Translations under genes and position numbers: made by a program | DNA from: Clostridia bacterium | GTDB taxonomy: Bacteria > Bacillota > Clostridia > UMGS1840 | Assembly (NCBI GenBank): GCA_017625695.1 | Contig: JAGAKI010000022.1 | Location: 1-47,864, forward strand | Length of the DNA stretch: 47,864 bases | Direction of reading: 5' to 3' | Part shown: positions 17,213 through 34,321 of the stretch, in pieces | How the letters are laid out: each line of letters begins with the position of its first letter | How positions within the stretch are numbered: position 1 is the stretch's first letter | The notes under the pieces: model-generated | Database searches by the model: none | What the model was told of the DNA's origin: nothing | Seen by the model: only the letters and a program-made list of their open reading frames with translations

Positions 17213-18103
17213 TTAATCGCCGTTTGGTATACTCAAATACGCTCTTTGATGTTTAATCATTTTTTGTGCTGCTTCTATTTCCAATTCATCAATTATGGAA
17301 GCATCTGCCAGCAATCTTCCGTCTCGAGATTGTTTCAAATGAATTATTTCCTCAAATACAGCGGAAGCAGATGGATTATCTCTAAAAAACATCATATTGC
17401 CCAATGAGGATGCTTCTATATATTCTTTTTCTTTCTCTGATTTACAATCCAAATATGCAATAGCTTCTTCTCCGGTTATTATATCAATCCCTTGTTTGCG
17501 TAAATTCTCAAACATTCTATTTCTACGCTCGACATCAAGAGGCTTGAAGTTTTTTGGAGAAGACACTCTATTCAATGCTATTATACCACCACTATTTCCA
17601 TTTGTCAACGGTTTTACGGCAGATTTCATCCGTTCCATTTTGGTAGGAAGTCCGCTTTCTTTGGATAATTTGGTATATTTATTGGTTAAAAGATTGAGTT
17701 TATACTGTGCTTCCCGGCGCATCATATCATTACCTGCAGCTTTGGCAATCACCGCACGGTCTTTTTGTCGACGGACTTCACTTTCAATCCGCTTCTGCAG
17801 TTGCCCCGCTTCGTATCGGGTGTATTCTTTCCCCTCAAATTCAAATTTGCGGTTATCCTCTGCCTTGAATTGTGCCAGCTGTTCCTTGGAATAGGCAGGG
17901 CGGGAACTTCCCAGCAGAATGGAGAATTTGAAGTGCAGACAACCAAATTCGTTCAGTAACGGTTCCGCCTTCTCCTCAAAGGACGGATAATACGTTCCAT
18001 TTACCCATCTGGCACCACCGATAGCAAACTGCTTTCCGCCCATATCGGCGTGGGACGGTCTTGGAATAGGTATGATATAAATCTCGTTGCCGTAGAACAA
18101 CAT
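17213..18103 (-). pseudogene. 5'-truncated phage minor capsid gene with a toxin-like C-terminal domain
   Basis: The 296-residue frame begins in mid-protein. Residues about 14-130 match the C-terminal part of phage minor capsid protein 2 (R-P-S-H-A-D, Y-P-S-F-E-E-K, the F-E-G-K-E-Y-T-R-Y-E-A segment and an R/K-rich helix); the N-terminal capsid part is missing. After a linker, residues about 185-296 form a separate domain with F-E-E-I-I-H-L-K-Q and a later E-I-E-A-A, resembling zincin-like C-terminal domains on phage head proteins. The first dozen codons come from the structured repeat at 18071-18153, whose boundary lies inside the frame, and the apparent start has no SD. Other prophage genes are absent, so this is a relic. 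The C-terminal domain plus the following small gene could still be functional. Confidence 0.7.
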
Positions 18104-18153
18104 ATCGAGTTAATTTTAACATATCGAAAATCTCGACAGAGATTTATATCGAG
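18071..18153. repeat. ATATCGA-type structured repeat, copy A (right half only)
   Basis: Shares its core with copies at 31749-31903 and 34120-34268: TATGATA, GTTGCCGTA, CAACATATCGAG and two more ATATCGA separators. Only the half whose separators read ATATCGA is present; the other half is replaced by the capsid gene. A terminator-like hairpin follows at once. Confidence 0.7.
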
Positions 18154-18189: not shown

Positions 18190-18235
18190 GTGACTTTCAT
18201 GTTCATAATAGATGCAACAGATTTTAGCTAAATTT

Positions 18236-18395
18236 TGCAACTTGTTGCAAAGCGAAATTATTGCTTCGCAATAGCTAAATTGTTTCTAACGAAACAGCTA
18301 AATTAAATTCGCTTTTAGCTGACCAAAGGTCAATTTAGCTACGAAGTAATTTAACGTGCGTTAGTACATTTAGCTCGCAGAACGCGAATTTAGCT
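18236..18395. repeat. AATTTAGCT-type structured repeat, copy A
   Basis: An array of a constant nine-base separator alternating with small hairpins of differing sequence. The first half carries the separator as AGCTAAATT (four copies, one with a mismatch), the second half as its complement AATTTAGCT (five copies, some shortened). The hairpins between them include TTGCAAC/GTTGCAA, ATTGC/GCAAT, GTTTC/GAAAC, GACC/GGTC and CGC/GCG. The array lies between the hairpin at 18154-18189 and the tRNA terminator. No start codon, promoter or protein is evident in it. Copy B is at 33892-34081. Confidence 0.8.
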
Positions 18396-18397
18396 GA

Positions 18398-18435
18398 AAA
18401 AAAGACAGATTTCTTTGTCGAAATCTGTCTTTTTT
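18398..18435 (-). terminator. Terminator of tRNA-Pro
   Basis: A 16-bp perfect stem (AAAAAAGACAGATTTC with its complement) around TTTGTC, ending in T6, placed directly after the CCA end of the tRNA gene. Confidence 0.88.
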
Positions 18436-18436
18436 C

Positions 18437-18513
18437 TGGTCGGGATGACAAGATTCGAACTTGCGACCTCTTGAACCCCATTCAAGCACGCTACCAAGCT
18501 GCGCTACATCCCG
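18437..18513 (-). tRNA. tRNA-Pro (anticodon GGG)
   Basis: A 77-base cloverleaf: seven-base acceptor stem CGGGATG/CATCCCG, D arm with AGCTTGGTAGC, anticodon stem CTTGA/TCAAG around ATGGGGT (anticodon GGG), T arm with GTTCGAATC, and an encoded CCA end. It has its own consensus promoter and terminator. No copy of its 3' end is visible at the far side of the neighbouring phage relic, so there is no evidence that it served as an attachment site. Confidence 0.95.
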
Positions 18514-32384: not shown

Positions 32385-33821
32385 TTATGCATTAACTGAA
32401 TATTCCTTTTTAAATCCATGCGCTCCGAAAATTTGCCACTTACCTATGCCAAGTCTTTGCATAATTGCCTTTCGTTCTTCTGCACAAAGCTCAGGATTGG
32501 TATCAACAGATGTCATAAGTATTGGAGCATATTGGTTGTATTCTGCCTGCTCCTGAGTTAATCCGTGAGTGTTAATATAAATATCCCCTGTAATTGCAAT
32601 ATGATTTCGATAGTCAATCAGAACTATTTCCCCGGGAAGGTGTCCGCCCTGACCCTCATACACCTCAAAATGGAGTTCTCCAAAATCAAAAAAACCAATT
32701 TGTGTTAGGGGTTCTGCAGGATTTTCCACATCATCCCACAATACCGTAACCTTATCGGGATTTACCGTTTTGTATGAGGTAAGTAACTTGCATATATTAA
32801 TATAAGGTTTATGCAGGGGATTTTCCTCCCTGTACCCATTTTTTCCATTATGTTCTTTGTTTAAACACATTGCGGTTTTATGACTGGCAATCACCTCGTC
32901 AAATGCCGGCAAAAGTCCACAATGGTCAACATCGGCATGCGTTATAAGTATTGTTTTTTTCATCTCATTAAATTCAGGCATAATCTCATTAAATACTTTT
33001 AGCATTTCTTTTGTATAACAAGCATAACCGCTGTCTATAAACAAATATTTTTTGTCGCTGTTTATAATGATTGTATTACTTCCGCAAGGTGGTTCTATCA
33101 ATATGATCTCGGTTTTTTCGGTAATTTTGTGTTTCGTTATGCGCGGGGAAAAATTCCTTCCTTTTGAAGCACCAAGCAATTCTGCAAATTTGCTGATACT
33201 GTCAAAGGTGCGATATGGAGACAACCCCTGTTCGTCCAACGTCTGCATAGCAAGATTTACATTTACTAAAAGTTCTTTGCTTATATCGGTGGTTAAACCC
33301 ATAATCTGAGCCAGACCCATAACATATGTATTGTAAAAAATACTGTTATCATAAACCTTCTCTGAACTGTTATATGCTATCAATCGAACTTTGCATATTT
33401 TTTCAACTTCCTTCAAAAATTCAGATATTTTTTGCGAATCATCAACATACAAGCCCATCTTAAAATACTGATAATTTGTTCCATTTTCTTGTGAACTCAT
33501 ATATGATATGTTAAAATTGAATCTGTCAATAAGAGTCAAAACATCCGTGACACTTCCCGGAATATCTCTCAGACAGAACTCCAATAATACAATACTTGTT
33601 TTCAAATTATTATTTTGAAGATAGCCAATCTTTTCAAGTTCACTGTCTGCTTTTTTCAGCTGTTCCTCAGTTCCTTCTGCATCGATAAACAACATATGCG
33701 AATCTACTGCCTTGTTGTAACTTACACGAGTAATATTAATTCCTAATGCTGAAAAGCACTTACTCGCTTTTAAAAACGCGCCAATACGATTTGGCATTGA
33801 TGTTACATATGTTTTTTTCAT
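32385..33821 (-). CDS. Fusion of two ACT domains with an MBL-fold hydrolase
   Basis: A 478-residue protein. Residues 1-65 and about 72-145 look like two ACT domains (P-N-R-I-G-A-F-L-K-A and I-P-G-S-V-T-D-V-L-T), the amino-acid-sensing module. Residues about 210-478 form a metallo-beta-lactamase fold with T-H-A-D-V-D-H-C-G near 295, G-Q-G-G-H-L-P-G-E and I-T-G-D-I-Y further on. An allosterically controlled hydrolase responding to an amino acid is a reasonable guess, with no known substrate. The ATG at 33821 has an SD (AAAGGAG) at the end of the shared upstream module. Codon use and the absence of an operon suggest an acquired gene. Confidence 0.75.
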   Translation of the reverse strand: MKKTYVTSMPNRIGAFLKASKCFSALGINITRVSYNKAVDSHMLFIDAEGTEEQLKKADSELEKIGYLQNNNLKTSIVLLEFCLRDIPGSVTDVLTLIDRFNFNISYMSSQENGTNYQYFKMGLYVDDSQKISEFLKEVEKICKVRLIAYNSSEKVYDNSIFYNTYVMGLAQIMGLTTDISKELLVNVNLAMQTLDEQGLSPYRTFDSISKFAELLGASKGRNFSPRITKHKITEKTEIILIEPPCGSNTIIINSDKKYLFIDSGYACYTKEMLKVFNEIMPEFNEMKKTILITHADVDHCGLLPAFDEVIASHKTAMCLNKEHNGKNGYREENPLHKPYINICKLLTSYKTVNPDKVTVLWDDVENPAEPLTQIGFFDFGELHFEVYEGQGGHLPGEIVLIDYRNHIAITGDIYINTHGLTQEQAEYNQYAPILMTSVDTNPELCAEERKAIMQRLGIGKWQIFGAHGFKKEYSVNA

Positions 33822-33828
33822 ATATTTC

Positions 33829-33884
33829 TCCTTTCGCCAATATCCGACATTCTTACTATAAAGACTGTATAATCTTGATGCCAA
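33829..33884 (-). promoter_or_regulatory. Shared upstream module, copy 2
   Basis: Minus strand order: TTGGCATC, AAGATTATACAG, TCTTTATAGTAAG, AATGTCGGATATTG, CGAAAGGAG. TTGGCA and TATAGT lie 18 bases apart and could be a promoter; the TATAAAGACTG core (plus strand) starts about 37 bases from the start codon. An AATTTAGCT repeat abuts its outer end. Confidence 0.75.
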
Positions 33885-33891
33885 CCATTTA

Positions 33892-34081
33892 AGCTAAATT
33901 TTGCAACAAGTTGCAAAGCTAAATTATCCCGCTTCGCTTCATAGCTAAATAACTCCTTTGGAGTAGCTAAATTAAATTCGCCAAAAGCGTGCGAAGCACA
34001 TTTAGCTGCCACAGGCAATTTAGCTGAACTTGTTCAATTTAGCTCGCCGTAGGCGAATTTAGCTGCGGTGCTATGCACCGC
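33892..34081. repeat. AATTTAGCT-type structured repeat, copy B
   Basis: Four AGCTAAATT separators are followed by four AATTTAGCT separators. Hairpins between them: TTGCAAC/GTTGCAA (the same as in copy A), ACTCC/GGAGT, GTGC/GCAC, GCC/GGC, GAAC/GTTC, CGCC/GGCG and, at the edge, GCGGTGC/GCACCGC. Apart from the first, the hairpin sequences differ from those of copy A while staying perfectly paired. The array lies between a shared upstream module and copy C of the ATATCGA repeat. Confidence 0.85.
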
Positions 34082-34119
34082 ATATGATTTTGTCAAGTTA
34101 AGGACAAAAAATTTTTGTT

Positions 34120-34268
34120 GATATGCAAACTTTGTTTGCTCGATATATTTACTTCGTAAATTCGATAGGTTCTTCGTATCACTCAAAACTCGATATGATA
34201 GAAATCCCGTTGCCGTAAGGCAACATATCGAGTCTGCAAGACAGATCGAAAATCTTAAATTTATATCG
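34120..34268. repeat. ATATCGA-type structured repeat, copy C
   Basis: Separators GATAT, CGATAT, TCGAT and CGATAT are followed by ATATCGA, ATCGA and ATATCG. Perfect small hairpins between them include GCAAAC/GTTTGC, ATTTAC/GTAAAT and GTTGCC/GGCAAC. It lies 50 bases from the terminator of glgP. The whole interval 33822-34366 holds only the module, the two repeats and that terminator. Confidence 0.8.
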
Positions 34269-34321
34269 CTGCATTTAATTGTTATGCAATAAAACTTATT
34301 ATAACATATTTCTTCCAAAAA

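Follow-up and report, generated by a model that had tools for sequence, protein, structure and literature searches.

A solo hairpin array from a Clostridia bacterium and its probable origin in mobile elements bearing an S23/IVP gene

The intervening sequences (IVSs) of 23S rRNA are excised from the rRNA by RNase III. PF05635 (S23/IVP) proteins have been known since these IVSs were described; pentamer structures have been solved, the function is not known, and Xanthomonas S23p forms a homopentamer (PMC4990558). The Coxiella IVS carries tandem heptamers upstream of the S23p ORF (PMC4990558), and work cited there suggested that IVSs are mobile elements whose ORF is needed for movement. Here, we analyzed a 47,864-nt stretch of DNA from a Clostridia bacterium (contig JAGAKI010000022.1; the window) with two copies, A and B, of an array of short hairpins. 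Copy B probably represents, in solo and non-autonomous form, the 5′ region of a PF05635-bearing mobile element, in which the protein would recognize the array and host enzymes would help. That the array is the 5′ part of such an element had escaped a previous reading of the sequence alone (the sequence-only reading).

Hairpin arrays in the window and in related genomes

Copy B combines an array with a terminal hairpin (Table 1). On the plus strand, four AGCTAAATT-type separators are followed by four of the AATTTAGCT type; seven hairpins lie in between and an eighth (GCGGTGC..GCACCGC) stands at the right. Direct reading bore out the alternation of constant separators and variable hairpins claimed in the sequence-only reading, together with all six arm pairs that it named, and added the pair TTGCAAC/GTTGCAA (33901-33916). 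The hairpins had also been called perfectly paired; in one unit, 33926-33942, outer and inner pairs flank a 3x3 mismatch. The complementarity of the centre to the last unit recurs as GGC/GCC in three other loci (L080, L089 and L140; L numbers denote loci and G numbers genomes), seen by inspection and without statistics. The left-end hairpin also precedes arrays in G007 copies and L090, and the right end recurs in L090, L146, L164 and L189. Copy A (18191-18436 overall) has the same plan. Both copies are intergenic, each is adjoined by an ATATCG-family array and an Rfam scan gave no rRNA match in the window. The start (MLFYGNEIYIIPIPR..) of the minus-strand ORF 17213-18103 is read from ATATCG array sequence, and its N terminus is probably an artefact, a truncated array fused to the gene. 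In relatives, a separate PF05635 clade accompanies the ATATCG family (L248-L253, L316, L318, L324).

Table 1 Features of copies A and B and their surroundings (positions in the window)
Feature	Position	Strand	Remarks
Partial ATATCG-family array	18073..18153	-	Lies past copy A and extends into the start of an ORF
Copy A right end	18191..18225	-	AAAATCTGTTGCATCTATTATGAACATGAAAGTCA
Copy A bipartite array	18226..18395	-	Same family as copy B
Copy A left end	18396..18436	-	Terminator-like hairpin, starting immediately 3′ of the tRNA CCA
tRNA-Pro	18437..18513	-	Copy A inserted directly after its 3′ CCA
Host gene downstream of copy B	32385..33821	-	ACT-like N-terminal region and further C-terminal region, read from sequence
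Copy B right end	33856..33891	-	TAAATGGTTGGCATCAAGATTATACAGTCTTTATAG; promoter-like, reading towards the next gene
Copy B bipartite hairpin array	33892..34064	-	AGCTAAATT family; sense (element) strand is minus
Copy B left separators	33892-33900, 33917-33925, 33943-33950, 33965-33973		33943-33950 matches 8/9 letters
Copy B centre	33974..33982	+	AAATTCGCC, complementary to GGCGAATTT of the last unit (by inspection)
Copy B right separators	34000-34007, 34017-34025, 34036-34044, 34056-34064		34000-34007 matches 8/9 letters
Copy B left-end hairpin	34065..34081	-	GCGGTGC AT GCACCGC on the minus strand
Second solo array	34119..34289	-	ATATCG-separator family, in tandem upstream of copy B

The window contains 12 occurrences of the motif AATTTAGCT where 0.96 would be expected, and 0/100 shuffles reached this count. 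The pattern separator-N(5-30)-separator gave 24 matches in the 1.97-Mb host genome and none for the reversed control; the genome holds ~14 arrays. Further copies were collected by pattern search of genomes. Such a search of related genomes, proposed in the sequence-only reading, yielded the same arrays, often near-identical, in 9/60 relatives, distributed patchily across Clostridia families, and arrays also occur in many rumen and gut Clostridia metagenome-assembled genomes. Outside Clostridia, the pattern gave many isolated hits (in Nostoc, Flavobacterium and others); these resemble chance occurrences or repeats of another kind, and we left them out of the bipartite counts. Some arrays of up to 11 units are one-directional and lack the inverted half (L065, L068, L095, L029); no gene was seen adjoining these four. 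Others are tandemly duplicated (L144, L190, L113), with the left-end hairpin included in the repeat of L144, and may help to fix the element ends.

The linked PF05635 gene and insertion sites

Many bipartite arrays sit immediately upstream of one small gene, assigned to PF05635 (23S_rRNA_IVP/S23; E=1.9e-28). Around 89 PF05635 genes from the class, we scored an array where two or more palindromic units were flanked by copies of one 6-mer. Arrays lay upstream of 44/89 genes, compared with 0/267 shuffles and 8/86 downstream regions, and about half of the genes had none by this score. One PF05635 clade without separator arrays (L224-L227, L244, L246, L255) has a long TTCACTATTC-type inverted repeat behind tRNA genes instead. 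The strongest Pfam matches (L256-L258) had no Rfam match within 1.5 kb and, therefore, offered no 23S IVS comparison. In two unannotated human-gut ‘phage’ scaffolds, MT835815.1 (L364) and MT835590.1 (L365), a PF05635 gene likewise follows an array, in one case immediately 3′ of a tRNA. PF05635 is not known to contain a catalytic domain. An AlphaFold model of the protein (pLDDT 95) is a four-helix bundle of the Avd fold, closest to 2RLD (TM 0.91) and also similar to 2GSC (about 0.74), PDB entries with five chains each; matches to Avd of diversity-generating retroelements (DGRs; 4DWL, TM 0.79; 8UB7, TM 0.77) had weaker E-values.

Full-length copies run from a left-end hairpin through the bipartite array and the PF05635 gene to a small variable cargo ORF and a right end, the last two being present in those copies read through. 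The cargo encodes DUF4288 in L018 and, joined to a truncated gene start, NUDIX in L196, with other ORFs in L147, L188 and L191. Where read that far, the right end carries GGCATCTAAA or a close relative, with the general form T(T/G)GCATCTAAA. In the solo copies A and B, a related right end stands directly behind the array; lacking the PF05635 gene, they look like non-autonomous derivatives.

Separators vary with the PF05635 clade (ATTTAGC, ATTTCAC, ATATCGA, ATATCGC, ATATCAT, ATATCAC, ACATCAT, CTTCAC and AATTCA) and look like variants of one motif, usually laid out as four inverted and four direct copies. Mapped on the protein tree, the separator label requires 15 changes (minimum 9; shuffled mean 44.4; 0/200 as low), and the AGCTAAATT label is confined to one side of a branch. 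This match would be expected from linkage alone as well as from recognition.

Insertion sites were compared with their counterparts in congeners. At the site of copy A, the same tRNA-Pro in G002 runs straight into the terminator found past the right end of the element in the window; the site is also empty in G001, while G003 holds a AATATCAC-family array there. The full-length L018 sits immediately 3′ of a promoter −10 box, and array, gene and cargo form one inserted block; G002 and G003 have this promoter without interruption. The L013 promoter is empty in the same two genomes. No array is present at the L008 promoter in G003 and G004, and the array of G001 there belongs to the ATATCGC family and shares this type of right end. 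Besides copy A, which follows a tRNA CCA, three copies were inserted after a −10 box. Close relatives have both occupied and empty sites, as is generally expected of mobile elements, and mobility is well supported. Target duplications are clear in some copies only (L018, TAGAATAGA; L008, TATAATGAATTC; read by eye). A same-strand tRNA lies within 480 nt upstream of 29/85 PF05635 genes and downstream of 2/83. TANAAT boxes did not separate left from right flanks (14 versus 15) and the right-end motif was present in 23/57; these counts being uninformative, the promoter preference is drawn from the four sites compared in detail.

At the site of copy B, the G001 orthologue of the downstream host gene has a decayed short array upstream, so solo copies need not be maintained. 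We dropped this locus as a clean empty site, given the decayed array in G001 and a different element in G050. The latter belongs to another interspersed type (AGCCCTCC..GGAGGG; L171 1-1500, L149 flank), which precedes the orthologue of the copy-B gene in G050 and adjoins an array in G004.

We propose that the array is a cis-acting recognition region of an element in which PF05635 is the sole constant gene. By homology to the family pentamers, the S23/IVP protein may bind the units of separator and hairpin in DNA that is single-stranded or extruded. Once bound, it would mark the element for mobilization with assistance from host enzymes; arrays without the gene, such as A and B, would be moved in trans and then decay. 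We infer both recognition by the protein and the chemistry of movement. Against this proposal, no movement was observed, the helper enzyme is postulated and solo arrays may have host roles. With a terminator or hairpin contributed at the left end and a tail resembling a promoter or CCA at the right, neighboring host genes may stay expressed, and elements in promoters and behind tRNAs apparently allow this.

Arm pairing, loop types and the folded form

Among 315 distinct units from all loci, 1,354/1,883 pairs counted from the ends inward were Watson-Crick, against 524 after shuffling. When the 3′ arms of 57 bipartite copies were shuffled 200 times, no shuffle reached the pairing observed at any of the six unit positions, and each position had 5 to 15 additional Watson-Crick pair types. 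The arms, therefore, do change and still pair, as first noticed in copy B. Covariation by itself is no proof of the selection on structure that was read from this, since hairpin template switching (quasi-palindrome correction) also keeps arms paired. The further suggestion that left separators pair with right ones in a trunk did not survive as a selected structure: 20 substitutions included no compensated one, and such a trunk is impossible in one-directional arrays.

Pairing as a mere by-product of template switching, free of selection on structure, would fit this difference, as the uncompensated long-range trunk lies outside the reach of the process, and it would also fit the decay of at least one solo copy. 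It leaves aside, however, that the 4+4 layout, the separator motif and the loop polarity are kept beside the gene across protein clades of quite different sequence, and we judge it improbable.

The loops are strongly biased. On the AATTTAGCT strand, 54/94 triloops are GNA, with the complement seen once, and 37/70 tetraloops are GNNA, with the complement never seen; C-G closes the loop in 143/173 hairpins. GNA or GNNA loops with at least two G-C pairs form extraordinarily stable DNA mini-hairpins (PMC4686876). GNA/GNNA loops occupy the sense strand within the 3′ half, and in the 5′ half they occupy the antisense strand. Other separator families show the same polarity (3′ half, GnA 32 versus TnC 1; 5′ half, TnC 19 versus GnA 0). 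Well-paired units contain 16 G-U and 16 A-C pairs; counted by half on the sense strand, the figures are 4 versus 4 in the 5′ half and 11 versus 3 in the 3′ half. Together, loop types and these counts point to DNA rather than RNA as the folded form, without proving it.

Folding copy B in both forms, another suggestion of the sequence-only reading, gave results beyond shuffles for RNA (z −4.0 minus, −3.7 plus) and for DNA (z about −4.6, both strands). The RNA values are among the reasons to consider that the array might act through its fold as a structured regulatory or non-coding RNA, a leader or sRNA, with dispersal being secondary. Several arrays do lie between promoter and gene, and the G-U excess over A-C in the sense-strand 3′ half agrees with an RNA. 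Nevertheless, we regard this explanation as unlikely: the DNA folds score equally well or better, loop polarity follows the separator and not the transcript, GNYA loops (23) outnumber GNRA (14), the array at the copy-B orthologous site is decayed in a congener and one site is occupied by different array families in different genomes.

Relation to described systems

The view that the array is the opposite of a CRISPR holds: constant palindromic repeats with variable spacers are replaced by variable palindromes between constant separators. The sequence-only reading knew of no named element with this plan; correspondingly, no Rfam family was matched at its gathering score, and open-licence PMC papers yielded no description of such arrays. 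On the basis of this open-licence literature, we rate the element class as new, its protein family and the 23S IVSs being already known. Miniature inverted-repeat transposable elements (MITEs) are likewise small, interspersed and intergenic with gene-less copies, but the parent here carries PF05635, and among the loci read we met no parent insertion sequence with matching ends.

REP/BIME and REPIN-RAYT systems share interspersed palindromic arrays, inverted layout, intergenic sites and gene-less copies relying on a protein whose gene lies elsewhere. Y1_Tnp matches in 11/12 genomes would agree with short palindromes of this kind being moved in trans by a Y1 (RAYT/IS200-type) transposase. This origin is nonetheless very improbable, as the constant linked gene is PF05635 rather than a Y1 transposase, and G006, a draft, has array and PF05635 genes without a Y1 (PF01797) match. 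The stems also vary around a constant separator, the reverse of REP, and no conserved tetranucleotide foot was identified.

DGRs resemble the elements through Avd, a protein that shares the four-helix-bundle pentamer fold (4DWL, 8UB7). A retroelement route, in which a reverse transcriptase copies the element RNA and the PF05635 protein plays the part of Avd, would draw on the fold match to Avd within the reverse-transcriptase complex (8UB7). By inserting after CCA or a −10 box, the element would provide its RNA with a defined 5′ end, and the insertion points coincide with such expected ends. The route is unlikely: PF00078 (RVT_1) was matched in 2/12 genomes only, and the ten without a match include G007, which has many arrays and seven PF05635 matches, although drafts may miss genes and a host enzyme could come transiently. 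Reading the elements, we noticed no template/variable repeat pair. Weak, Avd-like PF05635 matches do lie beside a reverse transcriptase in a DGR-like setting in the host (G000:C7:4283-5765) and a congener (G004:C19:19023-20505). With reverse transcriptase undetected in 10/12 genomes and Y1 undetected in G006, all drafts, neither known route is required by the data.

The 23S rRNA IVSs of Coxiella and Leptospira are alike in being small selfish elements with a PF05635/S23 gene, which full-length copies carry and copies A and B lack. The elements described here differ in lying outside rRNA genes, location within 23S rRNA being what defines an IVS, in their 4+4 separator-hairpin arrays and cargo ORFs, and in occurring in many copies at tRNA ends and promoters, some of them gene-less. 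They are present with their cargo genes in several families of gut and rumen Clostridia. The linked arrays, empty sites and coexisting full and solo copies make S23/IVP function directly testable, through binding of the protein to its own unit and its need for movement. We give an even chance to a broader unification, under which many bacterial mobile elements would form one large, so far unrecognized class: a small S23/IVP pentamer that lacks a known catalytic site would recognize extra-stable DNA mini-hairpin arrays with a cognate separator and direct insertion after tRNA CCA ends and promoter −10 boxes, with the 23S rRNA IVSs as a specialized branch.
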